A model generated the notes under the pieces. It was not told the DNA's origin and made no database searches. It saw only the letters and a program-made list of their open reading frames with translations. From assembly GCA_949358305.1 (NCBI GenBank), contig OX442319.1, positions 7,254,001-7,318,000 on the forward strand: a DNA stretch of 64,000 nt, given 5' to 3'. A program made the translations under genes and the position numbers. The DNA comes from Strigamia acuminata. Lineage: Eukaryota > Arthropoda > Chilopoda > Geophilomorpha > Linotaeniidae. Numbering within the stretch: position 1 is the stretch's first letter; every line of letters begins with the position of its first letter. Of the stretch, positions 6,001 through 62,550 are shown in pieces.

Positions 6001-6621
6001 GCCTTCTACTAAGGTTTAAACACTATTTCTGAACATTCAGAGACATTGGACTTGTGGTGTTTGTGCTAAGTAACTGTGATGAGATCAAAAGTCTATTCTC
6101 CCAAATCATTGCTTGGATGTTGCTAAAACTTACATTGAAGGCTTCTACTAAGGTTTAAACACTATTTCTGAACATTCAGAGACATTGGTCTTGTGGTGTT
6201 TGTGCTAAGTCAACTGTGATGAGATCAAAGTCTATTCTCCCAAATCATCGGTTGGATGTTTCTAAAACTTACATTGGAGCCTTCTACTAAGGTTTAAACA
6301 CTATTTCTGAACATTCAGAGACATTGGTCTTGTGGTGTTTGTGCTAAGTCAACTGTGATGAGATCAAAAGTCTATTCTCCCAAATCATCGGTTGAATGTT
6401 TCTAAAACTTACATTGGAGCCTTCTACTAAGGTTTAAACACTATTTCTGAACATTCAGAGACATTGGTCTTGTGGTGTTTGTGCTAAGTCAACTGTGATG
6501 AGATCAAAAGTCTATTCTCCCAAATCATCGGTTGGATGTTTCTAAAACTTACATTGGAGCCTTCTACTAAGGTTTAAACACTATTTCTGAACATTCAGAG
6601 ACATTGGTCTTGTGGTGTTTG
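1..6621. repeat. Satellite array 1, ~140-bp monomers
   Basis: Uninterrupted head-to-tail tandem repeat with a period of about 140 bp; the first monomer is 1-140 and the second starts at 141. Two main classes alternate. Class A begins ATGAGATCAAAAGTCTATTC. Class B begins GATGTGAAATGAGCTCAAAA followed by a run of T. The second half of the monomer (from CTACTAAGG through GTTTAAAC to GTGCTAAGT) is almost invariant in both classes, while the first half varies. No open reading frame above about 60 codons exists on either strand, so it is non-coding. The array is cut at 6621 by the BEL insertion. High identity over kilobases indicates recent homogenisation by unequal exchange. Confidence 0.97.
6618..6621. 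other. Target site duplication of BEL-1, left copy (TTTG)
   Basis: TTTG lies immediately before the LTR start and is repeated at 16045-16048 immediately after the element. In uninterrupted monomers the site reads GTGGTGTTTGTGCTAAG, with a single TTTG. A 4-bp duplication is within the usual range for BEL/Pao integrases. Confidence 0.9.
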
Positions 6622-6950
6622 TGTTGCAAGACAGCGTAGAAATTGTTGTGCTATTTTATTGTCAATATTTTTACCATTTACTTTGAGTTGATTAAAATCT
6701 TTAAGTGTTTTAATTTCCTTTGCCTAATTGGTATTTTTCACTTTTCAGATTTTTTTATTGCTTATTAAAATGTTTTGACTTGATTTTTATTCATACTTTT
6801 CAATATTCAGTAATGTTTATGCTTTGTATTGATTTCAAATATCTTATTCCGTGCATTTATTGACTTATTCACTTGTTTTTTGAGAGTTTGTGTTGATTCC
6901 GAACTGTTTTGGTGCAAATTTCGTTACCTAGCATACAATTGCGATGCTAG

Positions 6951-6958
6951 TGACGTCA
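6951..6958 (+). promoter_or_regulatory. CRE-like palindrome TGACGTCA in BEL-1 LTR
   Basis: A perfect TGACGTCA, the consensus site of CREB/ATF bZIP factors, in the U3 part of the LTR. An identical copy is at 14811-14818 in the 3' LTR. Its position upstream of the other motifs and of the poly(A) signal fits a promoter or enhancer site. Function is inferred from the consensus only. Confidence 0.45.
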
Positions 6959-7321
6959 TATTTCTGTTTCCCGTAAAGTTACGGTTCCGTCTTCTAACCT
7001 TTTGTTTGGTACTTTTCTAATCATTTGGAATTTTATTAAACATTCGTTTCTACTAATTAAAACATGCTCTTTCTATCTAGATGCATCAAAACTGCTTTGG
7101 AAGTTCCGTTTGATTGGTTTGAACGTTCGTTTCCGTCTGCCATAAAAGCGCAGCCGGGAATGTTCGTTTGGCCGATAAATTCGTATTTATTCAATCTGTG
7201 TATTTTATTCCGATGTTTTGTGAAGAGAATTGATAATTATTCTTATAATTTAATCGATACTTTATTGATTATATACATTTTAGTGTTTTTACATTCATTT
7301 TTCGTGTAGTTTTGCCGCCGA

Positions 7322-7390
7322 TGTTATGTTCGCCGGACGCCATGTTTGATCCAACACCTTTGTTATGTTCGCCGGTCGCCATGTTTGTCC
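7322..7390 (+). promoter_or_regulatory. Direct repeat carrying two YY1-like sites
   Basis: Two near-identical copies of about 30 bp (7322-7352 and 7361-7390), each containing CGCCGG(A/T)CGCCATGTTTG. The CGCCATGTT cores at 7338-7346 and 7377-7385 match the YY1 consensus (reverse of AANATGGCG). The repeat is also present in the 3' LTR. YY1 sites just downstream of a start site are common in retroelement promoters, so this may mark the transcription start region. Confidence 0.45.
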
Positions 7391-7743
7391 CAAGCGACGA
7401 TTACACAATGTAACCGTTATTTTTGTATTTTATATCACATAATTTGCATTTACTATTACATTGCGTTATTATTCAGTATGTATTCTTTGATAATTTTGTG
7501 CTTTTGTACCGATCGAAATTCAAATGTGATCGTTATGTAATTTTCCTGGCCTGTGATTGGCTATCGTCAATCCTTTCTTTCCGAGATCGGTTTATTGCTA
7601 ATATCTCATTGTTTAACGTGTTTTTTGACATTGTTGTGATTAGCTTTTTTGTTCACCGCATTCTTGTGGTCATTTCAATGTATTTCAATGTATTTTTAGT
7701 GCATTTTTAAGCAAATGCCAACTTTGCCGTGATCTTGTTTCCT

Positions 7744-7761
7744 CCGTTACCATGGTAACGG
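7744..7761. promoter_or_regulatory. 18-bp palindrome containing a perfect RFX X-box
   Basis: CCGTTACCATGGTAACGG is its own reverse complement. The inner GTTACCATGGTAAC (7746-7759) fits the RFX X-box consensus GTTRCCATGGYAAC without mismatch. The same site is at 15604-15621 in the 3' LTR. RFX factors drive ciliary and testis genes in animals, so this could direct expression there. Binding is inferred from the motif alone. Confidence 0.5.
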
Positions 7762-7982
7762 AATCTTTCGTGTATCTGTATTTCGCCGCTATCGGCCTGG
7801 CGCGTGCCATATTCGGTACTGCGCATGTGCGGTTCTCTAAGAACCAATCTAATTGCTGTAATTTCTTCAGTTATTAACCAACCTTTGAATAAATGTGTTG
7901 TGTTTTATTAGCTCTTGTTTTAGGTTTATTTTCAAACACATTCAATGTGTAGTGAGTAGTTTAAAAATTCTCAGGCCAACTT

Positions 7983-8945
7983 ATGTTTCCGCCACCTATT
8001 GGATACTTGGTGCAGGTGTTCTCCACATTGTTCCAGCGGTACAACAATGCCATTTGTTGCGGATTTATTGCTCTCCAGTGCGATTTTCGTACTAGCCACG
8101 CCATACGACCTTGGGCGAGCTCAAGTGTCTTGAATTTGGATACGCATCGCCATTCCTTTCTATCTGTCTTGTTGACCTGCAACACAGATACGAAGCTTTT
8201 GGTTGCCGTGACCAGGATTCCGTCTGCAATTCGTGAGTTTTTCCAGTGCATCATCAATACGTTTGAAAAAGTGTTTGGTGCGACGGAGGAACAATACGTT
8301 CGTGTTTCGTCACCCATGTCAAGAGTCAACGTTCAACGTGACAGAAGTTACGACGGGGACTTCTTTGGCGGCGAAAACGAACAAAAGTGTGCATGCAGTT
8401 GGAGTTCAAGGTCACAACACTGGATAACACAACGCGTCGTGTTGGAAAGCGGATTCGCCCCTGGAATAATTGCATTTTACAGTGTTTTGCCTTATGAAAT
8501 TGAAATTTTGGAGATTTTGGTTATTAAGGGGAACTGTATCAAGTGTCTTTATGGGATTTTGGTAGTTGCATTTGTTGGTTTTCGGGAAAATTTCGATAAA
8601 GTGTCTATTTTACAACTTTTGAAGTGTTTTTTCATTGCATGCTTAGTTCTCCACTATAACCGCCATAAGCGGGGGAGATTAGATTTATTTCGAGTAAAAC
8701 TGACTAGTTTCAAGTTGAATAAGCTGTCAGTAGAGTCAAAATTTAATGATAGGAGTTATTGGCGTGTTTTGTTGCAAAACAAACCGTCAATTGTTTTCAA
8801 AAGAGTTTATTGGCGTGCTTTGTTGCTAAACGAACCGTCAATTATTTTCAAACTGTGCAGGGTAATTGTGTCACGTTTTATTTACGTACGCATTACCGCT
8901 CAAATTTTTGGTCATCCTCGATTGGCCAAACATTTGATATTCTAA
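7983..8945 (+). CDS. Candidate leader ORF of BEL-1, 320 codons, function unknown
   Basis: An ATG-initiated frame runs open for 320 codons from U5 of the 5' LTR, across the primer binding site, into the leader, ending 235 bp before gag. An open frame this long is unlikely by chance in AT-rich DNA. The product matches no family I recognise. It has hydrophobic stretches near residues 160-180 and 190-225, basic segments, and near its C-terminus a 17-residue tandem duplication (YWRVLLQNKPSIVFKRV and a variant) from a 51-bp in-frame repeat. The 3' LTR copy of this start is only 75 codons long. It may be an upstream accessory protein, part of a spliced product, or fortuitous. Confidence 0.3.
   Translation: MFPPPIGYLVQVFSTLFQRYNNAICCGFIALQCDFRTSHAIRPWASSSVLNLDTHRHSFLSVLLTCNTDTKLLVAVTRIPSAIREFFQCIINTFEKVFGATEEQYVRVSSPMSRVNVQRDRSYDGDFFGGENEQKCACSWSSRSQHWITQRVVLESGFAPGIIAFYSVLPYEIEILEILVIKGNCIKCLYGILVVAFVGFRENFDKVSILQLLKCFFIACLVLHYNRHKRGRLDLFRVKLTSFKLNKLSVESKFNDRSYWRVLLQNKPSIVFKRVYWRALLLNEPSIIFKLCRVIVSRFIYVRITAQIFGHPRLAKHLIF
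8200..8220 (+). other. Primer binding site of BEL-1, tRNA-His-like
   Basis: TGGTTGCCGTGACCAGGATTC begins with TGG, the complement of tRNA CCA-3'. As I recall invertebrate tRNA-His 3' ends, the rest is complementary to that tRNA except for one extra T after TGG. It lies 15 nt after the LTR end (8184), farther than the few bases usual in LTR elements. The tRNA assignment needs comparison with host tRNA genes. Confidence 0.6.
8756..8857 (+). repeat. 51-bp imperfect tandem duplication in BEL-1 leader
   Basis: Two copies starting TTATTGGCGTG (8756-8806 and 8807-8857) with several substitutions. The period is a multiple of three and lies inside the 320-codon leader frame. The divergence between copies is greater than between the two LTRs, so the duplication predates this insertion. 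Confidence 0.75.
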
Positions 8946-8966
8946 AATTCTCACGTGTCACCAAGG

Positions 8967-9104
8967 ACCGTGAAAATTGAGTGCTTTTTGGGGGATAAAA
9001 TAAAAACGTTTATTCTCTTTAAAGTTAAAACAAAAACCGTGAAAATTGAGAAATTTTTGGGGGATAAAATTACAAGGTTTATTCTCTTAAAAATTAAAAC
9101 AAAG
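8967..9104 (+). repeat. 69-bp imperfect tandem duplication in BEL-1 leader
   Basis: Two copies starting ACCGTGAAAATTGAG (8967-9035 and 9036-9104), both containing TTTTTGGGGGATAAAAT and GTTTATTCTCTT. It lies between the leader ORF and gag. The role is unknown; repeated leader blocks could be packaging or structural RNA elements. Confidence 0.75.
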
Positions 9105-9121
9105 TTGAATTGTCATGCCCG

Positions 9122-9150
9122 TTTTTATCTGTTCTTTCCAAATTTCACAG
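9122..9150 (+). promoter_or_regulatory. Candidate 3' splice acceptor just upstream of gag
   Basis: A pyrimidine-rich stretch ends in AAATTTCACAG at 9150, a good animal 3' splice site 30 nt before the Gag start. A possible donor is GCAG|GTGTTC near 8016 in U5. Splicing between them would remove the primer site and most of the leader ORF and give a short gag leader. No transcript evidence is available here. Confidence 0.35.
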
Positions 9151-9180
9151 CCGAATTTTTTGTGAGAGAGGACAGAGAAA

Positions 9181-12100
9181 ATGGCGGAACCTACAATGAG
9201 AGATCTTCTAACTGAAGATCAAATCAAAGTGCAACAACAACGTTGGGAATCGCAAGTCACTGCAATGAATCATCTGTTGTCTATATCGGAGAAGACAGCA
9301 GATCCAGGAGAACTGGAAGCGCTGGTGCAAACTGCGAACCCAAAAGAAACGAGAATAGTTGGTGCTTTGAATGATCTACAGGAATATTCGGACCACGGCT
9401 ATTATCTAGAATGCATTGACAAGCTTGAGACTATGCAAGCAAGAGTGGATCTTCTTCGCACGAGATACGAAATTTCAAAGCGATCACTTCCAACTTTGGG
9501 AGGAAGATTAAATACGTCGACAAGCTCAAACCAGAATACAACCTTGAACGCGACAGCAACGTTTAGAAAAAATTCGAAGCTGCCCAAACTGGATTCCGTA
9601 AAATTTGACGGAGATATTTTGAAGTATAGAACATTCAAAAGTAACTTCGAGACCTCCGTACACAAGGATCCAGACCTGAGTAACATTGAAAAACTCCAGT
9701 ATTTACAAACTATGTGTACTGGAGAAGCGGCAATTCTCATCTCAACTTTTCCCCTGATCGAGGAATCCTACGACCTTGCAAGAGAAGAACTCGAAAGACA
9801 TTTTGGTGATGAGGATGCCCAACAAACTGCGTTAATAAAATCAATTCGAGAATTAAAAGCTGTTTCAAGTGTATATCCAACTAAAGCGATAAAAACAAAT
9901 TTGACAAAGATTTCTGCGACTATTAGACTTTTAGAGCAACTTAAAATTCCTATTCAGACTTCCGGAGCCTTCTTATTGCCAGACATAATTAGCAAGTTTC
10001 CAACTTCAATGGCATTAAGATTTTACCAGGTTCACGGAATTCAAAATAAGAACATTGTTACGTTGCTCAATTTCTTTGTGAATGAAGTTGCGATGGCCGA
10101 ACGAACTGAAAGCGTTTCTGAAAAATCGAAAAAAGACAAGAATGAAAAATCTGAAGTGGAGAAACCGAAAGTGAAAGGTTCAATGACCACGTGCGCAGCT
10201 ACTCAAGACGCCAAGCAGTCTACTAGTGCCAAAACAAAGAGTGAACCGAAATCTGAAAGCAAGAATACGCCTTTCAAGACAAACAAGTGCATTTTTTGTG
10301 AAGATGAACATTTAAACGGCGCTTGTAAAAAGGATTTCGAAATTAACGCGAAAATCGAAATAGTTAAGAAAAACCGACTGTGTTTTAATTGTTTCAGAAC
10401 TGGGCATAGAGTGGGAGACTGCAAGGTCAAATTTTCTTGTAAACATTGTGGTGGGCGACACCATTCCACAATATGCAAAAAATCCGAGGTGAAGAATTCA
10501 ACGAACGCTGCGGAGAAGCCGAAGGAGCCACAAGTAACAACACATGTTTCATGCGCGATCTCGACGACTCTACAACTAATGATCTTCACTGCGGACCTCA
10601 AGACCAAATCAGGAGGAACTCACAGCATTCGTGGAATGATCGACCCGGGAAGCCATCGATCGTTCATTACAAAAGAATTTGTTGAAAGACTGAAACTGAA
10701 AAAATGCGGCAGTGTCTCTGCCACCACACAGAGATTCAACGACTCGTCTCCAGCAGCCACGGACTATGATGTGTTTAATGTCACATTGCAAAGTAAAAAT
10801 GACACTCAAGATTTGAAACTTTCAATGCTTTCTGTGGAAAATTTGCCACGAGTGCAGGGCATTCTTAACTCATCAATAATAGACAAGGTGAAGAAGTTAA
10901 ACCTTGAACTTGCTGAAGACCTACCAGCTAAGACTTCTCAAATCGACGTGCTTTTAGGAGTCGACGTGTGGTGGAAGGTCGTTAAGGACGGCAAGAAAAA
11001 AGTAAACGCAGATCTTGGATTAATAAATACAATTTTTGGTTGGGTCTTGTCCGGAGCGGCGGGGAACACCAATTTATTCGAAGATGAGGAAGAATTGACA
11101 ACATGTTGCAACACATGCGACTTAGACATCCAAGAAAAATTGGACAAACTGTGGAACATGGAAGCAATCGGAATAAATGCGGGAGAAAAAGAATCCGACT
11201 TTATTCGCGATCGATTCGAATCAACTACGAAGCGTCTAGACGATGGACGTTATGAAGTCATGCTGCCATTCAACGGACAGGAAGTCGACTTGGAGTCCAA
11301 TTGGGAATTGGCCATGAATCAACTGGCCAACACGCTCAAAAGAATAGATGCCAACGAGGACTACAAAAAACGTTACGACGAGTCCATGTGGCAGTATATT
11401 CACGAAAATCACGCGGAGGAAGTCCCAAAAGAAGAGCGTTTTCTGAAGAAAGGAACATACAATATACCTCACCATCCTGTAATCAAAGAGGATCGAGACA
11501 CGACGAAATTTCGAGTAGTGTTCAACGCGTCTTCATCCAAGAAGGGGAAACTTTCCCTCAATGACTGTTTATTTCCGGGACCCTCCCTTAATCCAGACTT
11601 AATACTCGTTATTGTGAGATTCCGTCTCTATTGTATTCCAATAATAGCAGACATTAAGCAAGCGTTTCTCCAGGTTATGATCAACCCAACTCAAACAAAC
11701 TTTTTACGTTTTTTGTGGGTCGCTCGTGACTATTTCAAAGAGCCATACTCATGGCAAAATTTGTGGAATAATCTAATGGTTCTGCGAATGATTGTCGTGC
11801 CATTTGGCGTCATTTCTTCTCCATTCCTCTTGTGTGCGACGATTAGGAAACAAGCGAAACAATTTGAAGAAACTCATGCAAAAGAAGTCGACGCACTCGA
11901 TGATGGAATCTTCATGGATGATTTGACGTCAGGAGGAGATTTTACAGCCGACACAACATCACATTGCGAGAAACTGAAAATGATATTAGACGACGGAAAG
12001 CTTCCCCTCGTGAAGTGGGCGACCTCAAGCAAGGACGTCTTCAACAATTTGAAAAAAGAAGGTTTTCATATGCGAGGAGAGGAGTTTTCGGACTTAGGAA

Positions 12101-14421
12101 TTATAAAAATGCTTGGAATATTGTGGAACACGGCAGAAGATGTCATGATGTTTAACATTCCGACAATTGAAAAAATTCCGAATACGAAGCGAGAAGTTGT
12201 TTCATTAATGGCTTCCATATTCGATCCAATGGGACTCATTGCTCCTGTTGTGCTTCAAATGAAACTGCTAGTTCAAGCAATCTGGATTAGAACAAAAAAC
12301 TGGGATGAAAAGATTCTTGACTCAGAGAAAAAAGAAGTCGAAGAATGGAGTCAAGACATACAAAAATTGAAAGAATTGAAAGTACAACGTTGGCTGCAGA
12401 CTTATGCCGGTCAAGACATCACTTTAGAAGTTTTCTGTGACGCAAGCACAAAGGCATTTGGCTGTTCAATTTTTGTCGTCAATCTGGAGGGCAAAAGAAC
12501 TTTATTGTTGAGTAAATGTCGTATTGCGCCGACGAAAAAAGTGACTCTTCCTCGACTTGAATTAACTGCAGCAGTGGTAGGAGTGCGAATGACCAAGTAC
12601 CTGTTAAAAAACTTTCTTCCCGGTTACCCGGTCACTGAAGTGCGATACTACTCGGACTCCACCATAACTCTAGCCTGGATAAATTCGGACAAGAACGTAT
12701 GGAAGCCATACGTCTCAAACCGTGTTCAAGAAATTATTTCTTCCACCAAACCCGAACAATGGTCTCACGTACCAACGGAATTTAACCCAGCAGATTTATT
12801 GACTCGACCACATAACTCAAAAACATTGATGCAAAATAAACTTTGGTGGTTTGGAGTTGATGTCTCAAAACTAGAAAAAACAGAAATTATACAAGAGATT
12901 CTTCCAGAAGAGGAACGAAAAATTGTAGTGATGACTATTCAAGTTAAGGAAAGTTTTATTGGACAATTTTTCAAACGTTTCCGGAATTACAACAAACTTT
13001 TGAGAGTTTTTTCGTATATTTTGCGATGGAAAAACAAACTTTTGCGCGGTGAGCCTCTCTCGCCACTCGAGTTAGAGGACAACCAATTGAAGATCCTGCA
13101 ATTTTCCCAGAAACTACATTTTTCTGAGGAGATTGATGATGTGAAAAACAAAAGAAAACTGTCTAAACATTCCACCCTACGCAATTTCGAGCTCTTCATT
13201 GACGAGGACGGATTACTTCGACTTCGTAGCCGCTTGAAAAAATCTTTATTGACATTTGATGAAGTGTATCCAATTATTTTGCATTATGATAGTTGGATAA
13301 CAAGACTGTTAATTAAAAAAGTGCATTTGGAGTTGCTTCACGGTGACATAAGCGAAACTTTGTATCACCTACGCGAACAATTTTGGATTATAAGAGGACG
13401 AAGAACTATACAAACAGTTATTCGAGAATGTGAGATTTGCCGACGAGGAAAACTTGCACGCAACAACCCTTCAACGGGTGACCTTCCTGCTGAACGTGTG
13501 ACACCAGCGGCGCCATTTCAAAACACCGGAGTTGACCACTTGGGTCCCATTTATGTCGGCAGCAACAAGAAAGAAAAGAAAAAAGTATATATCTTGCTTT
13601 TTACTTGTATGGTGACCCGTTCCATACATTTAGAAGTATCAGAGGACCTTTCTGTGCCAAAGTTTTTGCTTGCAATGAGAAGATTTGGGGCACGCTATGG
13701 ATACCCCGGGAAGATTTTCTCTGACAACAGTAAGACGTTTGAGCGCGGAAGCCTCGAATTACAATCGTGGGGAAAACTCATCGGTCAAAAAGACGTGAAA
13801 ACATTCCTATCTGAAAAAAGGGTGCTCTGGACATTCATCCCACCGCTGTCTCCATGGATGGGCGGAGCGTGGGAGCGTCTAGTCCGCTCTGTTAAAGATA
13901 AACTTCGAAAGACATTGTTGCGCAGCACCGTAGACTTAGAAACTCTCCAAACTTTGGCTCTGGAAATTAGTTCAGTGCTAAATTCACGACCTTTATCTTA
14001 TGTCCCCGACAGTGTTGATGGTGGTAGAATTTTGGCACCTGAAAACTTCTTAACAGGAGGTATGCCTAAATACCTAATAAACAAACAATTGAGTGCAATT
14101 AAAAAATCCGATTTGAGAAAACTGGAAATTAAACGACGCCAATTTATTTGGGAGTTCTGGAAAATTTGGAAAAAGAGTTACCTCATGCAATTGAGGAATT
14201 TTTATGAATCCAAAGGTGATAAGTTCTTCAAAAACCCTAAAGTAGACCAAATAGTGCTTCTAGAAAAAATGGGTACTAACCCATATTTTTGGCCACTTGC
14301 CAGGATAAAAGAAATTTTTCCCGGTGAGGATGGTCAAATCCGTGTGATAAAAGTTGTGCTACCCGATGGACGTGAGTTGAAAAGGTCAGTCAAGCATGTG
14401 AGAGCCCTAGAACTTGAGTGA
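9181..14421 (+). CDS. BEL/Pao Gag-Pol polyprotein, intact, 1746 aa
   Basis: Encodes all proteins for particle formation, reverse transcription and integration. Gag: a DUF1759-like region near 135-215 with DLSNIEKLQYLQTMCTGEA, then zinc knuckles at 401-414 (CFNCFRTGHRVGDC) and 420-432. Protease, A17 type: DPGS with Asp488 and the flap-like IDVLLGVDVWW near 588-598. RT: IADIKQAFLQV with Asp824 and the catalytic FMDD at 911-914. RNase H: FCDAST (Asp1087), LPRLELTAAV (Glu1127), YYSDST (Asp1159). Integrase: zinc-binding H1382, H1387, C1417, C1420; core Asp1452, Asp1515 and Glu1565 in GGAWERLV. There is no frameshift between gag and pol and no stop. Start choice: AAAATGG is a good initiation context preceded by the leader. 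No envelope follows. Confidence 0.97.
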   Translation: MAEPTMRDLLTEDQIKVQQQRWESQVTAMNHLLSISEKTADPGELEALVQTANPKETRIVGALNDLQEYSDHGYYLECIDKLETMQARVDLLRTRYEISKRSLPTLGGRLNTSTSSNQNTTLNATATFRKNSKLPKLDSVKFDGDILKYRTFKSNFETSVHKDPDLSNIEKLQYLQTMCTGEAAILISTFPLIEESYDLAREELERHFGDEDAQQTALIKSIRELKAVSSVYPTKAIKTNLTKISATIRLLEQLKIPIQTSGAFLLPDIISKFPTSMALRFYQVHGIQNKNIVTLLNFFVNEVAMAERTESVSEKSKKDKNEKSEVEKPKVKGSMTTCAATQDAKQSTSAKTKSEPKSESKNTPFKTNKCIFCEDEHLNGACKKDFEINAKIEIVKKNRLCFNCFRTGHRVGDCKVKFSCKHCGGRHHSTICKKSEVKNSTNAAEKPKEPQVTTHVSCAISTTLQLMIFTADLKTKSGGTHSIRGMIDPGSHRSFITKEFVERLKLKKCGSVSATTQRFNDSSPAATDYDVFNVTLQSKNDTQDLKLSMLSVENLPRVQGILNSSIIDKVKKLNLELAEDLPAKTSQIDVLLGVDVWWKVVKDGKKKVNADLGLINTIFGWVLSGAAGNTNLFEDEEELTTCCNTCDLDIQEKLDKLWNMEAIGINAGEKESDFIRDRFESTTKRLDDGRYEVMLPFNGQEVDLESNWELAMNQLANTLKRIDANEDYKKRYDESMWQYIHENHAEEVPKEERFLKKGTYNIPHHPVIKEDRDTTKFRVVFNASSSKKGKLSLNDCLFPGPSLNPDLILVIVRFRLYCIPIIADIKQAFLQVMINPTQTNFLRFLWVARDYFKEPYSWQNLWNNLMVLRMIVVPFGVISSPFLLCATIRKQAKQFEETHAKEVDALDDGIFMDDLTSGGDFTADTTSHCEKLKMILDDGKLPLVKWATSSKDVFNNLKKEGFHMRGEEFSDLGIIKMLGILWNTAEDVMMFNIPTIEKIPNTKREVVSLMASIFDPMGLIAPVVLQMKLLVQAIWIRTKNWDEKILDSEKKEVEEWSQDIQKLKELKVQRWLQTYAGQDITLEVFCDASTKAFGCSIFVVNLEGKRTLLLSKCRIAPTKKVTLPRLELTAAVVGVRMTKYLLKNFLPGYPVTEVRYYSDSTITLAWINSDKNVWKPYVSNRVQEIISSTKPEQWSHVPTEFNPADLLTRPHNSKTLMQNKLWWFGVDVSKLEKTEIIQEILPEEERKIVVMTIQVKESFIGQFFKRFRNYNKLLRVFSYILRWKNKLLRGEPLSPLELEDNQLKILQFSQKLHFSEEIDDVKNKRKLSKHSTLRNFELFIDEDGLLRLRSRLKKSLLTFDEVYPIILHYDSWITRLLIKKVHLELLHGDISETLYHLREQFWIIRGRRTIQTVIRECEICRRGKLARNNPSTGDLPAERVTPAAPFQNTGVDHLGPIYVGSNKKEKKKVYILLFTCMVTRSIHLEVSEDLSVPKFLLAMRRFGARYGYPGKIFSDNSKTFERGSLELQSWGKLIGQKDVKTFLSEKRVLWTFIPPLSPWMGGAWERLVRSVKDKLRKTLLRSTVDLETLQTLALEISSVLNSRPLSYVPDSVDGGRILAPENFLTGGMPKYLINKQLSAIKKSDLRKLEIKRRQFIWEFWKIWKKSYLMQLRNFYESKGDKFFKNPKVDQIVLLEKMGTNPYFWPLARIKEIFPGEDGQIRVIKVVLPDGRELKRSVKHVRALELE

Positions 14422-14481
14422 TTTTTCTTTTGTGATTTTTTTGCGTGGTTCTCCATCTCTGTCCTCTCGCCGGCAATTCGC
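14422..14481 (+). other. 3' UTR of BEL-1 with pyrimidine tract and CGCCGGCAAT before the 3' LTR
   Basis: The 60 bp between stop codon and 3' LTR hold a pyrimidine-rich tract (TCTCTGTCCTCTC, 14456-14468) and CGCCGGCAAT (14468-14477) 4 nt before the LTR. The polypurine tract normally found here for plus-strand priming is absent. The kinase-bearing element has the same motif at the same place. Confidence 0.7.
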
Positions 14482-16044
14482 TGTTGCAAGACAGCGTAGA
14501 AATTGTTGTGCTATTTTATTGTCAATATTTTTACCATTTACTTTGAGTTGATTAAAATCTTTAAGTGTTTTAATTTCCTTTGCCTAATTGGTATTTTTCA
14601 CTTTTCAGATTTTTTTATTGCTTATTAAAATGTTTTGACTTGATTTTTATTCATACTTTTCAATATTCAGTAATGTTTATGCTTTGTATTGATTTCAAAT
14701 ATCTTATTCCGTGCATTTATTGACTTATTCACTTGTTTTTTGAGAGTTTGTGTTGATTCCGAACTGTTTTGGTGCAAATTTCGTTACCTAGCATACAATT
14801 GCGATGCTAGTGACGTCATATTTCTGTTTCCCGTAAAGTTACGGTTCCGTCTTCTAACCTTTTGTTTGGTACTTTTCTAATCATTTGGAATTTTATTAAA
14901 CATTCGTTTCTACTAATTAAAACATGCTCTTTCTATCTAGATGCATCAAAACTGCTTTGGAAGTTCCGTTTGATTGGTTTGAACGTTCGTTTCCGTCTGC
15001 CATAAAAGCGCAGCCGGGAATGTTCGTTTGGCCGATAAATTCGTATTTATTCAATCTGTGTATTTTATTCCGATGTTTTGTGAAGAGAATTGATAATTAT
15101 TCTTATAATTTAATCGATACTTTATTGATTATATACATTTTAGTGTTTTTACATTCATTTTTCGTGTAGTTTTGCCGCCGATGTTATGTTCGCCGGACGC
15201 CATGTTTGATCCAACACCTTTGTTATGTTCGCCGGTCGCCATGTTTGTCCCAAGCGACGATTACACAATGTAACCGTTATTTTTGTATTTTATATCACAT
15301 AATTTGCATTTACTATTACATTGCGTTATTATTCAGTATGTATTCTTTGATAATTTTGTGCTTTTGTACCGATCGAAATTCAAATGTGATCGTTATGTAA
15401 TTTTCCTGGCCTGTGATTGGCTATCGTCAATCCTTTCTTTCCGAGATCGGTTTATTGCTAATATCTCATTGTTTAACGTGTTTTTTGACATTGTTGTGAT
15501 TAGCTTTTTTGTTCACCGCATTCTTGTGGTCATTTCAATGTATTTCAATGTATTTTTAGTGCATTTTTAAGCAAATGCCAACTTTGCCGTGATCTTGTTT
15601 CCTCCGTTACCATGGTAACGGAATCTTTCGTGTATCTGTATTTCGCCGCTATCGGCCTGGCGCGTGCCATATTCGGTACTGCGCATGTGCGGTTCTCTAA
15701 GAACCAATCTAATTGCTGTAATTTCTTCAGTTATTAACCAACCTTTGAATAAATGTGTTGTGTTTTATTAGCTCTTGTTTTAGGTTTATTTTCAAACACA
15801 TTCAATGTGTAGTGAGTAGTTTAAAAATTCTCAGGCCAACTTATGTTTCCGCCACCTATTGGATACTTGGTGCAGGTGTTCTCCACATTGTTCCAGCGGT
15901 ACAACAATGCCATTTGTTGCGGATTTATTGCTCTCCAGTGCGATTTTCGTACTAGCCACGCCATACGACCTTGGGCGAGCTCAAGTGTCTTAAATTTGGA
16001 TACGCATCGCCATTCCTTTCTATCTGTCTTGTTGACCTGCAACA
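14482..16044 (+). repeat. 3' LTR of BEL-1
   Basis: 1563 bp, differing from the 5' LTR at one noticed position (15992 A against 8132 G). It ends GACCTGCAACA, followed by the duplicated TTTG and resumed satellite. It repeats the CRE (14811-14818), YY1-like (15198-15206, 15237-15245) and X-box (15604-15621) sites. Confidence 0.95.
15748..15753 (+). terminator. Poly(A) signal AATAAA in BEL-1 3' LTR
   Basis: AATAAA followed directly by the GT-rich TGTGTTGTGTTTTATT, the normal arrangement of a metazoan cleavage and polyadenylation signal. The equivalent 5' LTR site is 7888-7893. It puts the R/U5 boundary shortly downstream, leaving roughly 270 bp of U5 before the LTR end. Confidence 0.6.
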
Positions 16045-25000: not shown

Positions 25001-26957
25001 TATTCTCCCAAATCATCGGTTGGATGTTTCTAAAACTTACATTGGAGCCTTCTACTAAGGTTTAAACACTATTTCTGAACATTCAGAGACATTGGTCTTA
25101 TGGTGTTTGTGCTAAGTCAACTGTGATGAGATCAAAAGTCTATTCTCCCAAATCATCGGTTGGATGTTTCTAAAACTTACATTGGAGCCTTCTACTAAGG
25201 TTTAAACACTATTTCTGAACATTCAGAGACATTGGTCTTGTGGTGTTTGTGCTAAGTCAACTGCGATGTGAAATAAGCTCAAAATTTTTTTTTCAAAGTT
25301 TATTGCTTGGGTGTTGCTAAAACTTACATTGAAGGCTTCTACTAAGGTTTAAACACTATTTCTAAACATTCAGAGACATTGGTCTTGTGGTGTTTGTGCT
25401 AAGTCAACTGTGATGAGATCAAAAGTCTATTCTCCCAAATCATCGGTTGGATGTTTCTAAAACTTACATTGGAGCCTTCTACTAAGGTTTAAACACTATT
25501 TCTGAACATTCAGAGACATTGGACTTGTGGTGTTTGTGCTAAGTCAACTACGATGTGAAATGAGCTCAAAATTTTTTTTTCAAAATTTAATGCTTGGGTG
25601 TTGCTAAAACTTATATTGAAGGCTTCTACTAAGGTTTAAACACTATTTCTGAACATTCAGAGACATTGGACTTGTGGTGTTTGTGCTAAGTCAACTGTGA
25701 TGAGATCAAAAGTTTATTCTCCCAAATCATTCGTTGGATGTTTCTAAAACTTACATTGGAGCCTTCTACTAAGGTTTAAACACTATTTCTGAACATTCAG
25801 AGACATTGGTCTTGTGGTGTTTGTGCTAAGTCAACTGTGATGAGATCAAAAGTCTATTCTCCCAAATCATCGGTTAAATGTTATAAAACTTACATTGGAG
25901 CCTTCTACTAAGGTTTAAACACTATTTCTGAACATTCAGAGACATTGGTCTTGTGGTGTTTGTGCTAAGTCAACTGTGATGAGATCAAAAGTCTATTCTC
26001 CCAAATCATCGGTTGGATGTTTCTAAAACTTACATTGGAGCCTTCTACTAAGGTTTAAACACTATTTCTGAACATTCAGAGACATTGGTCTTGTGGTGTT
26101 TGTGCTAAGTCAACTGTGATGAGATCAAAAGTCTATTCTCCTAAATCATTGGTTGGATGTTTCTAAAACTTACATTGGAGCCTTCTACTCAGGTTTAAAC
26201 ACTATTTCTGAACATTCAGAGACATTGGTCTTGTGGTGTTTGTGCTAAGTCAACTGCGATGTGAAATAAGCTCAAAATTTTTTTCTTCAAAATTTAATGC
26301 TTGGGTGTTGCTAAAACTTATATTGAAGGCTTCTACTAAGGTTTAAACACTATTTCTGAACATACAGAGACATTGGACTTGTGGTGTTTGTGCTAAGTAA
26401 CTGTGATGAGATCAAAAGTCTATTCTCCCAAATCATTGCTTGGATGTTGCTAAAACTTACATTGAAGGCTTCTACTAAGGTTTAAACACTATTTCTGAAC
26501 ATTCAGAGACATTGGTCTTGTGGTGTTTGTGCTAAGTCAACTGTGATGAGATCAAAAGTCTATTCTCCCAAATCATCGGTTGGATGTTTCTAAAACTTAC
26601 ATTGGAGCCTTCTACTAAGGTTTAAACACTATTTCTGAACATTCAGAGACATTGGTCTTATGGTGTTTGTGCTAAGTCAACTATGATGAGATCAAAAGTC
26701 TATTCTCCCAAATCATCGGTTGAATGTTTCTAAAACTTACATTGGAGCCTTCTACTAAGGTTTAAACACTATTTCTGAACATTCAGAGACATTGGTCTTG
26801 TGGTGTTTGTGCTAAGTCAACTGTGATGAGATCAAAAGTCTATTCTCCCAAATCATCGGTTGGATGTTTCTAAAACTTACATTGGAGCCTTCTACTAAGG
26901 TTTAAACACTATTTCTGAACATTCAGAGACATTGGACTTGTGGTGTTTGTGCTAAGT
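16045..26957. repeat. Satellite array 2 with higher-order repeats
   Basis: About 10.9 kb of the same satellite. The rare variant GTGAAATAAGCTC marks higher-order units: it occurs at about 18621, 19892, 21162, 22293, 22868, 24139 and 25270. The spacings 1271, 1270, 1131, 575, 1271 and 1131 equal 9, 9, 8, 4, 9 and 8 monomers. The same markers show a 2977-bp super-period (21162 to 24139, 22293 to 25270). Non-coding throughout. It ends at the kinase element's 3' LTR, whose duplicated AAGT is 26954-26957. Confidence 0.95.
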
Positions 26958-28315
26958 TGTTTCTGGCAAGGTCGCAGGCGACAACCAGGCCAGAAGGAGG
27001 GGCGGCAATACTTGACTGCTGCTTGGCACAAATTGATACACAGAAGTTGGCCAAAGACTTGAAGAAATGCAAACACTGGACTTGAACTTGCTGCTTCACA
27101 TGATGATCTGCCACTGGTGAGTTCAAGGAGGAGGAAGGAGGATTTTTCTACTCACTGCACATTGCTTTCTGGTTGTATAGAGAAATGAGACTTGGAGAGA
27201 AATAAAAAGCAACCATTTTATTCTCTAAATTCTTAACAAGACTACTACAATTGAATCACGAGGATATTACAAAGAAGTCACACTTTAACAATAATAAGAA
27301 ACAACAAGTGTAACTATCTCCACATTGTATAAGGACACTTGCACTTAAAGTTACAGAGGTCTCTAAGTGCTTGTAAAGAGAAATAAGTACTGCTGGCACA
27401 ACAAAACTACCGTAGAAGTTAATAGTTGAAAACACATAAGCCTAACAGCAAGTATTTGACATTAAATGCAAAAGTATACATTAACAACAGTCTCTAACCA
27501 CAATGCTCGTTGAGAACTAAATTATTCACTCTAAAACACACTGAACAACTCATAAAATAGAGAAAAGAATAAGTAAAGACATTTTAGACCAATGAGCTGG
27601 CAACTTTACAGTAAGTGCAGAAGTTAAGTTATAAATCAACACAGATAAATCTTAAACTTAACACTTTTACATTGCATAATAATTAAGTGATTAATTATTA
27701 ATCAGAACCCACAAAAACTCTTTGGGATTAAACATTTTCTCCTCTCTTTACAGATACAAGTAGACCACTCCCACAGTAATGGCCGACAATGTAAACAGAG
27801 ATCACTTGCAGGAAGATAGAAAGGCTTGAAATTAGCTCACTAGACAGGCTACACACAATCTAAGTTAACAAAACGCTTAATTGGTTAGTAATATACAGAA
27901 AACAAACAGAAATTGATTGAAACAGCTTAAAACTGATAATAACATACATTTCTCATTCTAGTACCCTTTTGCTGTCTGAGAGCATCATTACACCTTGTCA
28001 CTACATTGACAATAGTGGACTGGAAACAGGAAAACACTTGGAAACATCAAAACATGCATAACACAGGTAAACAAGATAGAAAATAAATTCTAAGTGGATA
28101 AATAACTAATGTAAAAACTCTTTTCTTCCCAGATTTATCCGGTCAGATCAACCAGTACTGAGAAATTCACTCAAACTAACTCAAAGAAGACTTATATTCA
28201 AATAAGTGTCTAATTAAATTCCCAATCTAAGATAAATATTAAAAACCCTTTTTAATAATTCCAGATGACTAATTTTTAAGACGTTTAGCAGCTTTCCTTT
28301 ATGTTGCTAGCAACA
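26958..28315 (-). repeat. 3' LTR of TK-BEL copy 1
   Basis: 1358 bp. In element orientation it begins with the palindrome TGTTGCTAGCAACA and ends CCAGAAACA. It matches 32189-33546 throughout as far as I compared. Its transcript-sense 3' part holds a poly(A) signal (27217-27222) and a small repeated ORF (MNSPVADHHVKQQ...) that also occurs in the other two LTR copies and has no known domain. Confidence 0.93.
27217..27222 (-). terminator. Poly(A) signal AATAAA in TK-BEL 3' LTR
   Basis: TTTATT on the + strand reads AATAAA on the element's sense strand, near the 3' part of the LTR where the R/U5 boundary is expected. Sense sequence downstream is T-rich (TTGCTTTTTATTTC). Confidence 0.5.
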
Positions 28316-28318
28316 TAG

Positions 28319-28328
28319 ATTGCCGGCG
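28319..28328 (-). other. CGCCGGCAAT motif preceding the TK-BEL 3' LTR
   Basis: In sense orientation the sequence reads CTTTCTTTTCGCCGGCAATCTA and then the LTR. The 10-mer is the same as in BEL-1 (14468-14477), 3 nt from the LTR, again after a pyrimidine tract and without a polypurine tract. The LTRs of the two families are otherwise unlike, so the match is probably functional or inherited from the common ancestor. Confidence 0.65.
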
Positions 28329-28350
28329 AAAAGAAAGTGCGAACAACCCA

Positions 28351-31300
28351 TCATTTAGTTCGATTACTTCTGGTCTTTGATGATAATATTTGGGAGACCT
28401 CTTTCACCTTTTCGTATTCCACTCTGGGTGGCATGATTCTTTGACGGATCAAATTTGGTATCCACGGAGGTATTCTTCGGTTGACAATCATACAACTAAG
28501 TCGAATAATTCCGTTGATGATTTTCCTTTTCGTCTCTAGGGACTTCATGGGCTTTGAGAAACATACTCGACAGGTTGGTTTGTATTTGTCGATCCCTCCT
28601 ATCATCTTGACTCGGGTTTCGTGCGAAATTCGTCTTGAAAATTCAGCTTTATCTCCGCAAAAATAACATTTTGCTTGTAGTTTCACAACAGACTCGGCTA
28701 GTGGAACTAACTCGGATATCTGATCAAATGGCTTCCTCTTGAAGTCGACGTCTAATGCGGCGACTATTACCTTTTTCTTTTGCTCAGCCATTTCATTTGA
28801 AAAAGTAAAAATGTCGGGAAAAAACTGTCCTTCGTCAATTCCGATTGTCTTCACTAATTTCGTTTTTTCCACAGCATTGGTTAGGCTACTGGTCGCGATT
28901 GCTTCTCGTCGATGACCGTCGTGGGTCACGACTTCGGTTTTACTGTAACGATCGTCATTGGAGTGTTTAATTAGCAGGGACGACGTCTTCTCTTCCTTTT
29001 CTAAAAGCTTCAATAACTTGGTCGTTTTCCCCGCATACATTGGACCAATGATGAGATGAATTCCCTTTTGATTGGTTGACAAATCAATTTTCTTTTTCCA
29101 GAAATTCAGAATCACGTTTCCACTCCATCTCACGATTGCACACAATTTGGGTAAACTGGGCACTTGGTTTGTAAGTAATTCGACGTTCTTTCTCCCTGAC
29201 TCTAACTGATTTCGCCCTCGTAATTCCGGCTTCATGTCCGAGCTTGGAGTTCTGTTGACCAATCCTCCATCCTTGAACGACTTTTTCGTTTTTTGGAGGG
29301 TGGTGTCCAGTTCCTCTTTCTCCAGACCACTGGAGAGGCTCGCGGCAAAACAAGAAGGTGTGACGTCTGTCTGTTTATTCACACCGGGTTCGCCATTCAT
29401 GTTGGGCAGTGATTTCGGAATTAATTGGACTATTTTGTTTTCGTCATTTTCAGGTTGATTTGAGATCACTTCTTCTTTGGACTCGACCGCCATGCAAGAA
29501 ATGTTGCACGCTGCCATGTTTTCTTCAAGCGGGTTGTTTGGTTTCAGTCGACCGTTTAGAATCCACCCAAAAATTGTCTCCATTAATCCCAACTCGTCGT
29601 TGATTTTTCGGCTTCCACCTTGACAAATCTTCCACCATGCGTTGCTTCCTAATAAGACGTCAATGTCTTCCGATTCTGACGGATGTATCTCAGCCATCTC
29701 AAGTCCGAGTGATTGGACTTGCTTTATGGCTTCTGCTCCAATTATCCCTTTGACTTTCGGGAGTGTGTCGGTTTCTAATGCAAGGATTGATGTCTTTTTT
29801 GTTCCGTGTCTTGATTGTAGTTCGAATCTAAAGACATCATGTGTCGTCGGAACTGGCTTTTTGTTGAGCAGACACTGTGTCATCGTGTGTAGTGTCTCGA
29901 TCTTTTGCATCCGGAATTTATTTACTAGTCTCTTCGTGACGTAGGAGCGATGGCTTCCTGGATCTAGTAATCCGCGGACGGGGTACATGTCTCCATTTTT
30001 CTTCACAAAAAGAGCAGTGAAGACCATCAGTTGAATCTCCACCGACTCGGTAAGCGATACATTAGTAGACACGTTTTCTTCTTTTGGTGTAATCGCTTTT
30101 TCTTTGTTGTTTTTGTTGCAGATCGATGTGTGATGTCTTCCACCACACAAGCGACAACAAAACTTCACGGTACATTCTTTGGCTGTGTGGTTATATCTCA
30201 AGCAGTTGAAACAAAGTCGTTTCTTCTTCACTATTTCGATCCTCGCTGGTACATCGAGATCCGCATCACAATTTGCGTGTGCGTGATCACCATCACAATA
30301 AGCGCAGGCGGGTTTGCGGTTTGGATTTGACTTGGAATTCATACTCAATTTTCCATTCTCGGAAGTCACGAATGAGGACATGGTTCCAGTTGGTCTTTCT
30401 CTTGTTTCCTTTGAAGTTTTCTCAAATTTTTCTGACTTCTTCAGATGAGCGCGCTTAAGGAGAACGCTTTCTTCCGACAATTCAGCCAGTTGTATCTCGG
30501 TTGCTACGAAGTCCAGAAAAACGTTAACATCATCAACTTTTCCTTGATGCTTTCGGTAAAAACGTTGGGAGATCTCCGGTGGAAATTTTCTAAGTAGTTC
30601 TGGAATAAGGTACGTTCCAGTAGTGTCAACTGACACAGACAGTTGCGCCATGGTCCGGACAGCAGATGCCAATGACGTGAATAGAGCTTTGAGTGGCTCG
30701 ATTGGGTAGAGATCGAAAACGGGTTTCGACTCCCTAATCATCTTTGAAATAGCATTTCTCTGCGTGTTTTCAGAACCGAATAGACTCTCCAATGTGTTTT
30801 TCGCTAATGGGTAGGCGTCATCAGTTATTGGGTACGACTTGATTGCGGATTCTGCAGCCCCAGTGCAGCATGACCTCAGATATATAAGCTTTTCCACGTT
30901 CGAAAGCTCCGTGTTCTGATCAACTGCTGATTCGAATAAATTCGCAAAACCTCTATATTCAGTTGCATCGCCACTAAATTTGGCAATGTCGGTTTTCGGC
31001 AATCTCGTGTTTCTCCTAGATGAAGCGGACGTCTGGTTTAAACTGGAATTCTGTCCCGGATGGGAACCAAATTGCCCTGCCATTTTTCCAGACACTTTTG
31101 CTCTTTGCTTCAATAAATTTACTCTGGTTCTAATGTCTTCAATTCGTTGAAGCCCCGCTAAATAGTCCTCTCTTTTTGACTCGTCTTTAAGAGCTTTCAA
31201 TTCGTCGGCGAGATCACTCAATTGCTGGTCAACCGTTATTTGCATGGCTTCCAGCTCTCCTCCGTCTAGAATGTTGACTGAAGATCCCAGCAGATCCTCG

Positions 31301-31368
31301 GCTCCTTGAGCCTTTGCTTTCCAAATGACCTCCTTTTCCTCGAGATCAGCAGCGGATAATGTAGCCAT
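28351..31368 (-). CDS. Gag-protease-thymidine kinase fusion polyprotein, 1005 aa
   Basis: Residue numbers are from the ATG at 31368 (the frame is open upstream, but the codon 9 bp earlier is GTG). Gag: DUF1759-like region near 125-215 (ELSNVEKLIYLRSCCTGAA). Zinc knuckles: 386-399 (CFNCLRYNHTAKEC) and 405-417. Protease: DPGS with Asp469, flap-like IDVLLGSNAWWK near 568-579. Linker of unknown function about 630-765. Thymidine kinase, TK1 type, about 770-940: P-loop GPMYAGKTT (775-783), IDEGQFFPD (844-852) with catalytic-type Glu846, AALDVDFKRKPF from about 870, VPLAESVVKL, and a zinc site with CYFC (901-904) and CRVC (933-936). A basic tail of about 65 residues follows. TK1 enzymes phosphorylate thymidine to dTMP. 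All core motifs are intact and no intron is visible, so capture as cDNA is likely. Confidence 0.93.
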   Translation of the reverse strand: MATLSAADLEEKEVIWKAKAQGAEDLLGSSVNILDGGELEAMQITVDQQLSDLADELKALKDESKREDYLAGLQRIEDIRTRVNLLKQRAKVSGKMAGQFGSHPGQNSSLNQTSASSRRNTRLPKTDIAKFSGDATEYRGFANLFESAVDQNTELSNVEKLIYLRSCCTGAAESAIKSYPITDDAYPLAKNTLESLFGSENTQRNAISKMIRESKPVFDLYPIEPLKALFTSLASAVRTMAQLSVSVDTTGTYLIPELLRKFPPEISQRFYRKHQGKVDDVNVFLDFVATEIQLAELSEESVLLKRAHLKKSEKFEKTSKETRERPTGTMSSFVTSENGKLSMNSKSNPNRKPACAYCDGDHAHANCDADLDVPARIEIVKKKRLCFNCLRYNHTAKECTVKFCCRLCGGRHHTSICNKNNKEKAITPKEENVSTNVSLTESVEIQLMVFTALFVKKNGDMYPVRGLLDPGSHRSYVTKRLVNKFRMQKIETLHTMTQCLLNKKPVPTTHDVFRFELQSRHGTKKTSILALETDTLPKVKGIIGAEAIKQVQSLGLEMAEIHPSESEDIDVLLGSNAWWKICQGGSRKINDELGLMETIFGWILNGRLKPNNPLEENMAACNISCMAVESKEEVISNQPENDENKIVQLIPKSLPNMNGEPGVNKQTDVTPSCFAASLSSGLEKEELDTTLQKTKKSFKDGGLVNRTPSSDMKPELRGRNQLESGRKNVELLTNQVPSLPKLCAIVRWSGNVILNFWKKKIDLSTNQKGIHLIIGPMYAGKTTKLLKLLEKEEKTSSLLIKHSNDDRYSKTEVVTHDGHRREAIATSSLTNAVEKTKLVKTIGIDEGQFFPDIFTFSNEMAEQKKKVIVAALDVDFKRKPFDQISELVPLAESVVKLQAKCYFCGDKAEFSRRISHETRVKMIGGIDKYKPTCRVCFSKPMKSLETKRKIINGIIRLSCMIVNRRIPPWIPNLIRQRIMPPRVEYEKVKEVSQILSSKTRSNRTK

Positions 31369-33546: not shown

Positions 33547-35248
33547 AAGTCAACTGCGATGTGAAATGAGCTCAAAATTTTTTTTTCAAAATTTATTGTT
33601 TAGGTGTTGCTAAAACTTATATTGAAGGCTTCTACTAAGGTTTAAACACTATTTCTGAACATTCAGAGACATTGGTCTTGTGGTGTTTGTGCTAAGTCAA
33701 CTGCGATGTGAAATGAGCTCAAAATTTTTTTTTCAAAGTTTATTGCTTGGGTGTTGCTAAAACTTACATTGAAGGCTTCTACTAAGGTTTAAACACTATT
33801 TCTAAACATTCAGAGACATTGGTCTTGTGGTGTTTGTGCTAAGTCAACTGTGATGAGATCAAAAGTCTATTCTCCCAAATCATCGGTTGGATGTTTCTAA
33901 AACTTACATTGGAGCCTTCTACTAAGGTTTAAACACTATTTCTGAACATTCAGAGACATTGGACTTGTGGTGTTTGTGCTAAGTCAACTACGATGTGAAA
34001 TGAGCTCAAAATTTTTTTTTCAAAATTTAATGCTTGGGTGTTGCTAAAACTTATATTGAAGGCTTCTACTAAGGTTTAAACACTATTTCTGAACATTCAG
34101 AGACATTGGACTTGTGGTGTTTGTGCTAAGTCAACTGTGATGAGATCAAAAGTTTATTCTCCCAAATCATTCGTTGGATGTTTCTAAAACTTACATTGGA
34201 GCCTTCTACTAAGGTTTAAACACTATTTCTGAACATTCAGAGACATTGGTCTTGTGGTGTTTGTGCTAAGTCAACTGTGATGAGATCAAAAGTCTATTCT
34301 CCCAAATCATCGGTTAAATGTTATAAAACTTACATTGGAGCCTTCTACTAAGGTTTAAACACTATTTCTGAACATTCAGAGACATTGGTCTTGTGGTGTT
34401 TGTGCTAAGTCAACTGTGATGAGATCAAAAGTCTATTCTCCCAAATCATCGGTTGGATGTTTCTAAAACTTACATTGGAGCCTTCTACTAAGGTTTAAAC
34501 ACTATTTCTGAACATTCAGAGACATTGGTCTTGTGGTGTTTGTGCTAAGTCAACTGTGATGAGATCAAAAGTCTATTCTCCTAAATCATTGGTTGGATGT
34601 TTCTAAAACTTACATTGGAGCCTTCTACTAAGGTTTAAACACTATTTCTGAACATTCAGAGACATTGGTCTTGTGGTGTTTGTGCTAAGTCAACTGCGAT
34701 GTGAAATGAGCTCAAAATTTTTTTTTCAAAATTTAATGCTTGGGTGTTGCTAAAACTTATATTGAAAGCTTCTACTAAGGTTTAAACACTATTTCTGAAC
34801 ATTCAGAGACATTAGACTTGTGGTGTTTGTGCTAAGTCAACTGTGATGAGATCAAAAGTTTATTCTCCCAAATCATTCGTGGGATGTTTCTAAAACTTAC
34901 ATTGGAGCCTTCTACTAAGGTTTAAACACTATTTCTGAACATTCAGAGACATTGGTCTTGTGGTGTTTGTGCTAAGTCAACTGTGATGAGATCAAAAGTC
35001 TATTCTCCCAAATCATCGGTTAAATGTTATAAAACTTACATTGGAGCCTTCTACTAAGGTTTAAACACTATTTCTGAACATTCAGAGACATTGGTCTTGT
35101 GGTGTTTGTGCTAAGTCAACTGTGATGAGATCAAAAGTCTATTCTCCCAAATCATCGGTTAAATGTTTCTAAAACTTACATTGGAGCCTTCTACTAAGGT
35201 TTAAACACTATTTCTGAACATTCAGAGACATTGGACTTGTGGTGTTTG
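33547..35248. repeat. Satellite array 3
   Basis: About 1.7 kb (12 monomers) of the same satellite between the TK element and the solo LTR. It begins with the duplicated AAGT and ends with TTTG (35245-35248). It includes class B monomers with the ATTGTTTAGGTG variant that is common in array 4 but that I did not see in array 1. Confidence 0.95.
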
Positions 35249-61193: not shown

Positions 61194-62550
61194 TGTTTCT
61201 GGCAAGGTCGCAGGCGACAACCAGGCCAGAAGGAGGGGCGGCAATACTTGACTGCTGCTTGGCACAAATTGATACACAGAAGTTGGCCAAAGACTTGAAG
61301 AAATGCAAACACTGGACTTGCACTTGCTGCTTCACATGATGATCTGCCACTGGTGAGTTCAAGGAGGAGGAAGGAGGATTTTTCTACTCACTGCACATTG
61401 CTTTCTGGTTGTATAGAGAAATGAGACTTGGAGAGAAATAAAAAGCAACCATTTTATTCTCTAAATTCTTAACAACACTACTACAATTGAATCACGAGGA
61501 TTTTACAAAGAAGTCACACTTTAACAATAATAAGAAACAACAAGTGTAACTATCTCCACATTGTATAAGGACACTTGCACTTAAAGTTACAGAGGTCTCT
61601 AAGTGCTTGTAAAGAGAAATAAGTACTGCTGGCACAACAAAACTACCGTAGAAGTTAATAGTTGAAAACACATAAGCCTAACAGCAAGTATTTGGCATTA
61701 AATGCAAAAGTATACATTAACAACAGTCTCTAAACACAATGCTCATTGAGAACTAAATTATTCACTCTAAAACACACTGAACAACTCATAAAATAGAGAA
61801 AAGAATAAGTAAAGACATTTTAGACCAATGAGCTGGCAACTTTACAGTAAGTGCAGAAGTTAAGTTATAAATCAACACAGATAAATCTCAAACTTAACAC
61901 TTTTACATTGCATAATAATTAAGTGATTAATTATTAATCAGAACCCACAAAAACTCTTTGGGATTAAACATTATCTCCTCTCTTTACAGATACAAGTAGA
62001 CCACTCCCACAGTAATGGCCGACAATGTAAACAGAGATCACTTGCAGGAGGATAAAAAGGCTTGAAATTAGCTCACTAGACAGGCTACACACAATCTAAG
62101 TTAACAAAACGCTTAATTGGTTAGTAATATACAGAAAACTCACAGAAATTGATTGAAACAGCTTAAAACTGATAATAACATACATTTCTCATTCTAGTAC
62201 ACTTTTGCTGTCTGAAAGCATCATTACACCTTGTCACTACATTGACAGTAGTGGACTGGAAACAGGAAAACACTTGGAAACATCAAAACATGCATAACAC
62301 AGGTAAACAAGATAGAAAATAAATTCTAAGTGGAAAAATAACTAATGTAAAACTCTTTTCTTCCCAGATTTATCCGGTCAGATCAACCAGTACTGAGAAA
62401 TTCACTCAAACTAACTCAAAGAAGACTTATATTCAGATAAGTGTCTAATTAAATTCCCAATCTAAGATAAATATTAAAAACTCTTTTTAATAATTCCAGA
62501 TGACTAATTTTTAAGACGTTTAGAAGCTTTCCTTTATGTTGCTAGCAACA
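61194..62550 (-). repeat. 3' LTR of TK-BEL copy 2
   Basis: 1357 bp. Compared with copy 1 it shows substitutions such as GATTTTAC for GATATTAC and GGAGGATAAAAAGG for GGAAGATAGAAAGG, plus a missing A in the run near 62348. Divergence by eye is about 1.3 percent. It keeps the terminal palindrome at 62537-62550. Confidence 0.92.

Follow-up and report, generated by a model that had tools for sequence, protein, structure and literature searches.

In retroviruses of the gag-oncogene type a host gene has been captured and pol lost, and plant elements of the TR-GAG type are nonautonomous long terminal repeat (LTR) retrotransposons that keep gag only. LTR elements may also carry additional genes: excerpts of two reports describe dUTPase within LTR retrotransposons of bdelloid rotifers (PMC5408684) and of fungi (PMC2864245), and those of a third describe crocodilian endogenous retroviruses carrying the host genes for KIT ligand or nectin3 (PMC4299795). 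For the BEL/Pao group (Belpaoviridae), the profile of the International Committee on Taxonomy of Viruses (ICTV) names gag, pol, and env (PMC8742986). Here we describe a BEL/Pao-like element in a 64,000-nucleotide stretch of the genome of the centipede Strigamia acuminata (assembly GCA_949358305.1, contig OX442319.1, positions 7,254,001 to 7,318,000; this whole stretch is termed the window herein), in which a single frame joins Gag and a protease region to a thymidine kinase (TK) of the cellular TK1 type.

We propose, with a probability of roughly 0.6, that this is a nonautonomous BEL/Pao LTR retrotransposon in which pol (reverse transcriptase [RT], RNase H, and integrase) has been replaced by a TK1-type kinase within one Gag-protease-TK polyprotein, with RT and integrase provided in trans and the kinase supplying deoxythymidine triphosphate (dTTP). 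The element resembles BEL/Pao members in its Gag domain (DUF1759), zinc knuckles, putative protease region, TG...CA LTRs, and target duplications of 4 to 5 bp, but it is without RT, RNase H, and integrase and has TK instead, and its 1358-bp LTRs compare with 0.2 to 1.2 kb in the ICTV profile (PMC8742986); its total length of 6589 bp lies inside the BEL/Pao range of 4.2 to 10 kb. Its kinase is like the TK1-type (type II) enzymes of animals and poxviruses in having the full domain, the motifs, and the predicted fold, but it is 41 to 53% identical to the 120 best relatives among the matches listed, belongs to a separate clade, and is fused behind Gag-protease. With the dUTPase-bearing LTR retrotransposons and retroviruses, as their excerpts present them, it shares an extra nucleotide-supply enzyme, but those elements add the enzyme to pol, whereas here TK stands in place of pol. 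Retroviruses that have captured host genes likewise have a gene of cellular type inside an LTR element and have often lost viral domains in exchange, and the likeness to the gag-oncogene type extends to the loss of pol and to an intronless cellular-type gene fused to Gag; the differences are that TK is a metabolic enzyme, that the fusion has been kept through the deep divergence of two families, and that the source may not be the host. Like the TR-GAG type, the element has its own Gag and would borrow pol, but it keeps a protease region and a captured enzyme.

The features are as follows, in coordinates of the window:

28351 to 31368, minus strand: Gag-protease-TK frame, from an ATG at 31368 to a stop codon whose last base is 28351, uninterrupted, 1005 amino acids
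28558 to 29061, minus strand: TK1-type thymidine kinase domain (PF00265), 184.2 bits, model positions 3 to 176 of 176
29452 to 30051 (approximate limits), minus strand: protease region, 59% identical to family B (see below) and 37% to the complete BEL element, with a DPGS motif
30553 to 30978, minus strand: Gag DUF1759 domain, 64.0 bits
32189 to 33546, minus strand: 5' LTR (in the coding sense), 1358 bp
26958 to 28315, minus strand: 3' LTR (in the coding sense), 1358 bp, TG...CA
26954 to 26957, no strand: left copy of the target duplication, AAGT on the plus strand, matching the right copy
33547 to 33550, no strand: right copy of the target duplication, matching the left copy
61194 to 64000, minus strand: second copy of the TK element, truncated by the window end, 99.2% identity over 2764 bases
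6622 to 16044, plus strand: complete BEL/Pao element with a 1746-amino-acid frame at 9181 to 14421

An original prediction, made from the window alone, had described the frame with these limits, the 1358-bp LTRs, and the 4-bp target duplication, and all three were confirmed: the LTRs are identical at 1358/1358 bases and end in TG...CA, and the duplication reads ACTT on the coding strand. The union of a BEL-like Gag and zinc knuckles with TK1 in one frame, which it had also described, was borne out by Pfam, which recognized DUF1759, the BEL-type Gag domain, and, in the profile check that it had suggested, PF00265 (E value of 2.6e-54), far above the Pfam cutoff of 20.6 bits. The stretch between the two domains contains three CCHC-like knuckles, a linker of low conservation, and, at residue 469, the DPGS motif. 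In the second window copy, the frame ends at 62586; its full frame of 1013 amino acids was found in the genome search.

Comparison with the complete BEL element of the window shows what is missing. The two frames align through Gag and protease with 36% identity over residues 17 to 626; homology stops there, and a linker and then TK follow at the position where pol should start. No pol domain (RT, RNase H, or integrase) was detected in the family A or B frames given to Pfam. Because its frame holds none of these enzymes, the TK element can be neither copied nor inserted by enzymes of its own; by its anatomy it is not autonomous, and the enzymes for both steps must be borrowed. No autonomous TK element was seen, with no frame of more than 1022 amino acids among the ∼92 scored BEL-type TK places; the TK frames of 1118 and 1999 amino acids belong to a lineage outside BEL elements (lineage D, see below), where adjoining stretches are open in many frames. 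In the complete element, which has 1563-bp LTRs with 1 mismatch and a target duplication of TTTG, Pfam recognized DUF1759, Peptidase_A17 (residues 1002 to 1160), Integrase_H2C2, and DUF5641, with DUF1758 just below threshold, and no RT model scored at an E value of 0.01. The protease is the weakest part of the architecture: Pfam gave no match for it in the window frame, and it was assigned by its colinear 36% identity to the complete element. Of the predicted "A17-type protease," a protease region remains probable from the DPGS motif and this colinearity, but the A17 label is not borne out, since Peptidase_A17 is absent from the frame and lies in pol of the complete element.

The fusion is widespread in the genome. 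A scan with the Gag-protease part as the query scored 82 places among 1296 candidates (the counts are lower bounds), and a scan for PF00265 scored 150 places among 205 candidates. The Gag-protease places form two families, family A, to which the window element belongs (at least 51 places, 97 to 100% identity to the query), and family B (at least 31 places, 57% identity), and the full frame is kept in 76 of the 82, comprising 47/51 places of family A (1009 or 1013 amino acids) and 29/31 of family B (995 or 1002 amino acids). PF00265 was above its cutoff at 150/150 scored places, which excludes a chance match; by frame length, these comprise ∼92 BEL-type places and 5, 13, and 40 places of the lineages C, D, and E described below. 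LTR pairs are identical also in 2 further A and 2 further B copies. Eight further A copies were fetched to read their junctions, one of which was dropped because its 5' junction fell outside the stretch; the remaining 7 were joined by L011, L012, and the window copy to give 10 readable copies, 5 flanked by satellite and 5 by other sequence. All 10 have a target duplication of 4 to 5 bp, each different, which argues for repeated integration rather than segmental copying of one site; the family has thus moved repeatedly. The original prediction had raised the possibility that the join is an assembly artifact absent from other copies. Nothing was found in favor of an artifact of assembly or annotation, and with 82 places, two diverged families, and differing target duplications against it we consider this reading refuted and give it practically no weight.

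The window element is inserted in a satellite array with copies ∼138 to 147 bp apart. By eye, four satellite insertions of family A (window, L011, L012, and L057) and the insertion of the complete BEL element (6618 to 6621) cluster within the same 28 bases of the ∼140-bp satellite unit, a hint that this part is a favored target. Family B LTRs come in two lengths, 965 and ∼725 bp, on nearly identical frames (L009, L010, and L013), and the element of L010 lies within a direct repeat of >4.5 kb, as if two copies had a common LTR. Shortly 3' of the 5' LTR of the window element, the putative primer site region reads TGGTACCGTGA, which was not matched to a tRNA. The stop codon lies 35 bases from the 3' LTR, and no polypurine tract was seen before it; at this expected site, where none is evident in family A, family B, or the complete BEL element, all three have in common a sequence containing GGCAAT, immediately ahead of the 3' LTR (28316 to 28335, L009:5383 to 5402, and 14462 to 14481, respectively). 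A tail of ∼40 to 60 residues behind TK (28351 to 28540, minus strand) resembles no Pfam family searched.

Families A and B share 55 to 59% identity in the Gag parts, 59% in the protease region, 55% in TK, 52% in the post-TK tail, and 30% in the linker. TK and Gag have thus diverged equally between the families. On the most economical interpretation of these identities, the two families inherited the fusion from before their split, and TK has been conserved as tightly as Gag. The ratios of nonsynonymous to synonymous substitution rates (dN/dS) for TK were 0.15 to 0.16 (A-A2), 0.19 (A-A3), and 0.11 to 0.12 (B-B3, with a dS of ∼1), and those for the linker were 0.67, 1.24, and 0.47, respectively; in copy L065, the ratio for TK was 0.13 over the 54 TK codons still open. 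These values indicate that TK in the elements is under purifying selection.

The kinase domain looks intact and is predicted to have the TK1 fold. Among the invariant columns of 27 aligned TKs are GPM..GK, DEGQFF, and the four zinc cysteines. An AlphaFold model had a mean pLDDT of 89.8, and its top matches among solved structures were human TK1 (TM-score of 0.94 by target length; root mean square deviation of 1.6). A folded domain under selection might also be a passenger or a structural part, a TK1-like multimer that terminates Gag and aids assembly rather than making deoxythymidine monophosphate. TK1 forms tetramers, TK is present in every Gag chain, and the post-TK tail is conserved as well (52%), all of which would suit such a role; however, the P-loop, DEGQFF, and the zinc cysteines are all kept, and selection on TK matches in strength that on a functional enzyme, and we therefore find a structural role rather improbable.

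Where the kinase came from is less clear. The original prediction was that the element had captured a host TK1 cDNA, and it proposed a tree with host TK1 and viral TKs as a check. The host TK1 gene (contig C9) is split by introns and, in two trees, falls among animal TK1s, nearest to that of Lingula (71% identity), whereas the element TKs of families A and B form one clade with the lineages C, D, and E (support of 99/95 and 99/93 in the two trees), apart from host TK1. Capture as originally stated is thus not supported. By the approximately unbiased test (p-AU), all element TKs together with host TK1 gave 0.042, but A plus B with host TK1 was not rejected (0.109). A TK taken directly from the host TK1 messenger by a BEL element and evolving rapidly thereafter would also agree with TK being intronless and of the animal TK1 type; with host TK1 placed among animal TK1s and not joined by the element TKs, we regard capture from the host's own TK1 as possible but doubtful. 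Since the trees contain long branches, which may attract each other, and the bootstrap of the tree used for the topology tests had not settled, we claim no source. A viral source was considered and rejected: a scan of IMG/VR gave 8 TK loci with 29 to 35% identity, none closer than 35%, of which the 4 placed in the tree were all on very long branches, and A plus B with three poxvirus TKs gave a p-AU of 0.035.

Lineages C (L014 and L015), D (e.g., L016 to L022, L027, and L028), and E (e.g., L023 to L026), of which 2, 9, and 4 copies, respectively, were read, are intronless, repeated TKs outside BEL elements. Those of D and E lie within repeats >10 kb long, and no coding sequence other than TK (dN/dS of 0.12) is well conserved between D and E. 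Lineages A to E might therefore be a pool of intronless TKs common to several kinds of repeat, with the BEL families as two carriers and the benefit going perhaps to the helper or to cells carrying the repeats. Both the single clade apart from host TK1 and the constraint on TK in D and E favor such a pool, but the long branches may attract, and the neighbors of C, D, and E gave no clue to the kind of repeat: ten frames yielded sub-cutoff matches only, and 48 frames of L014, L020, and L025 had no Pfam match at an E value of 0.001; in this form, we think the explanation unlikely. No Rfam family was found in the window, L014, L020, or L025, and no tRNA gene in the six loci examined. As a tentative synthesis, for which we would claim no more than a modest possibility, an old intronless TK lineage may have been taken up by several kinds of repeat and in one of them have displaced pol. 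The result would be a satellite retrotransposon that contributes DNA precursors and borrows RT and integrase from its helpers; dTTP supply would then be a selected trait of a selfish element, perhaps traded with the helper.

As regards the mechanism of the nonautonomous Gag-protease-TK element, it most likely builds its own Gag particles with TK in each Gag chain and borrows its copying enzymes. RT and integrase would be supplied in trans by complete BEL elements, of which that at 6622 to 16044 is an example. TK, perhaps freed by the protease of the element, would phosphorylate thymidine, keeping dTTP from limiting reverse transcription, e.g., outside S phase. Cellular TK1 is tied to S phase, and the element kinase would raise dTTP in cells with little host TK1.

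We infer a helper because pol is missing and complete BEL elements are plentiful: 137 of the 150 scored Peptidase_A17 places (1068 candidates) are in frames of >1000 amino acids. The family of the complete window element has at least 40 copies of 99 to 100% identity (40 scored of 383 candidates), on contigs that include C1, C5, C8, C9, C11, and C13; by eye, these contigs carry A or B copies as well. Among eleven complete elements compared, its Gag side was the closest to that of the TK element (36 to 38% versus 22 to 30%). The genome contains many complete BEL/Pao frames of ∼1700 to 1800 amino acids; they fall into several length classes, within which equal scores recur, and BEL activity thus looks high and recent.

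Several observations weigh against the proposal. No helper is proven, and even the closest complete Gag of the eleven is only 36 to 38% identical. The protease region of family B gave sub-threshold Pfam matches only, to DUF1758 and Asp_protease_2. In the old copy L067, the dN/dS of TK is 1.45 and the frame departs from the TK sequence near its end, and the pair B-B2, with 0 synonymous and 2 replacement changes in TK, offers too few changes to judge. Family A has Ser at the position of human Thr163, where family B keeps Thr. According to the title of PDB entry 2wvj, replacing Thr163 by Ser moves human TK1 away from thymidine and towards azidothymidine. Thymidine may thus not be the best substrate of the family A kinase, and substrate preference may differ between the two families.

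In line with the original prediction, which knew of no described retrotransposon with a thymidine kinase, we found no earlier report of TK inside a retroelement in the open-licence literature, judged by listings and the starts of abstracts, and PMC3118150, a survey of BEL/Pao, has no match for "kinase" in its main text. When a collection of 5.8 billion proteins was searched at fusion length, 3 of 738 candidates had a TK like this one, none with a listed BEL domain, and the Gag-protease part found 27 proteins (7997 candidates scored) of at most 28% identity, 0/27 with a listed TK domain; these protein-collection negatives are weak evidence of absence, because candidates need shared words and annotation often omits transposons. 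Nonautonomous LTR elements with a captured enzyme being already known, what appears to be new here is that the enzyme is TK and that it stands instead of pol.

Viral TKs and retroviral dUTPases have otherwise been the basis for arguing that DNA precursors are limiting. Should the kinase be active, precursor supply would be a limiting and selectable step for an animal retrotransposon, and the displacement of a polymerase by a precursor-making enzyme would constitute a new type of satellite element, one that brings substrate rather than copying enzymes. The elements would in any case offer a natural instance of a cellular-type gene retained by selection within an LTR element across deep divergence, TK having been maintained by selection as the elements came to occupy dozens of places in an animal genome.
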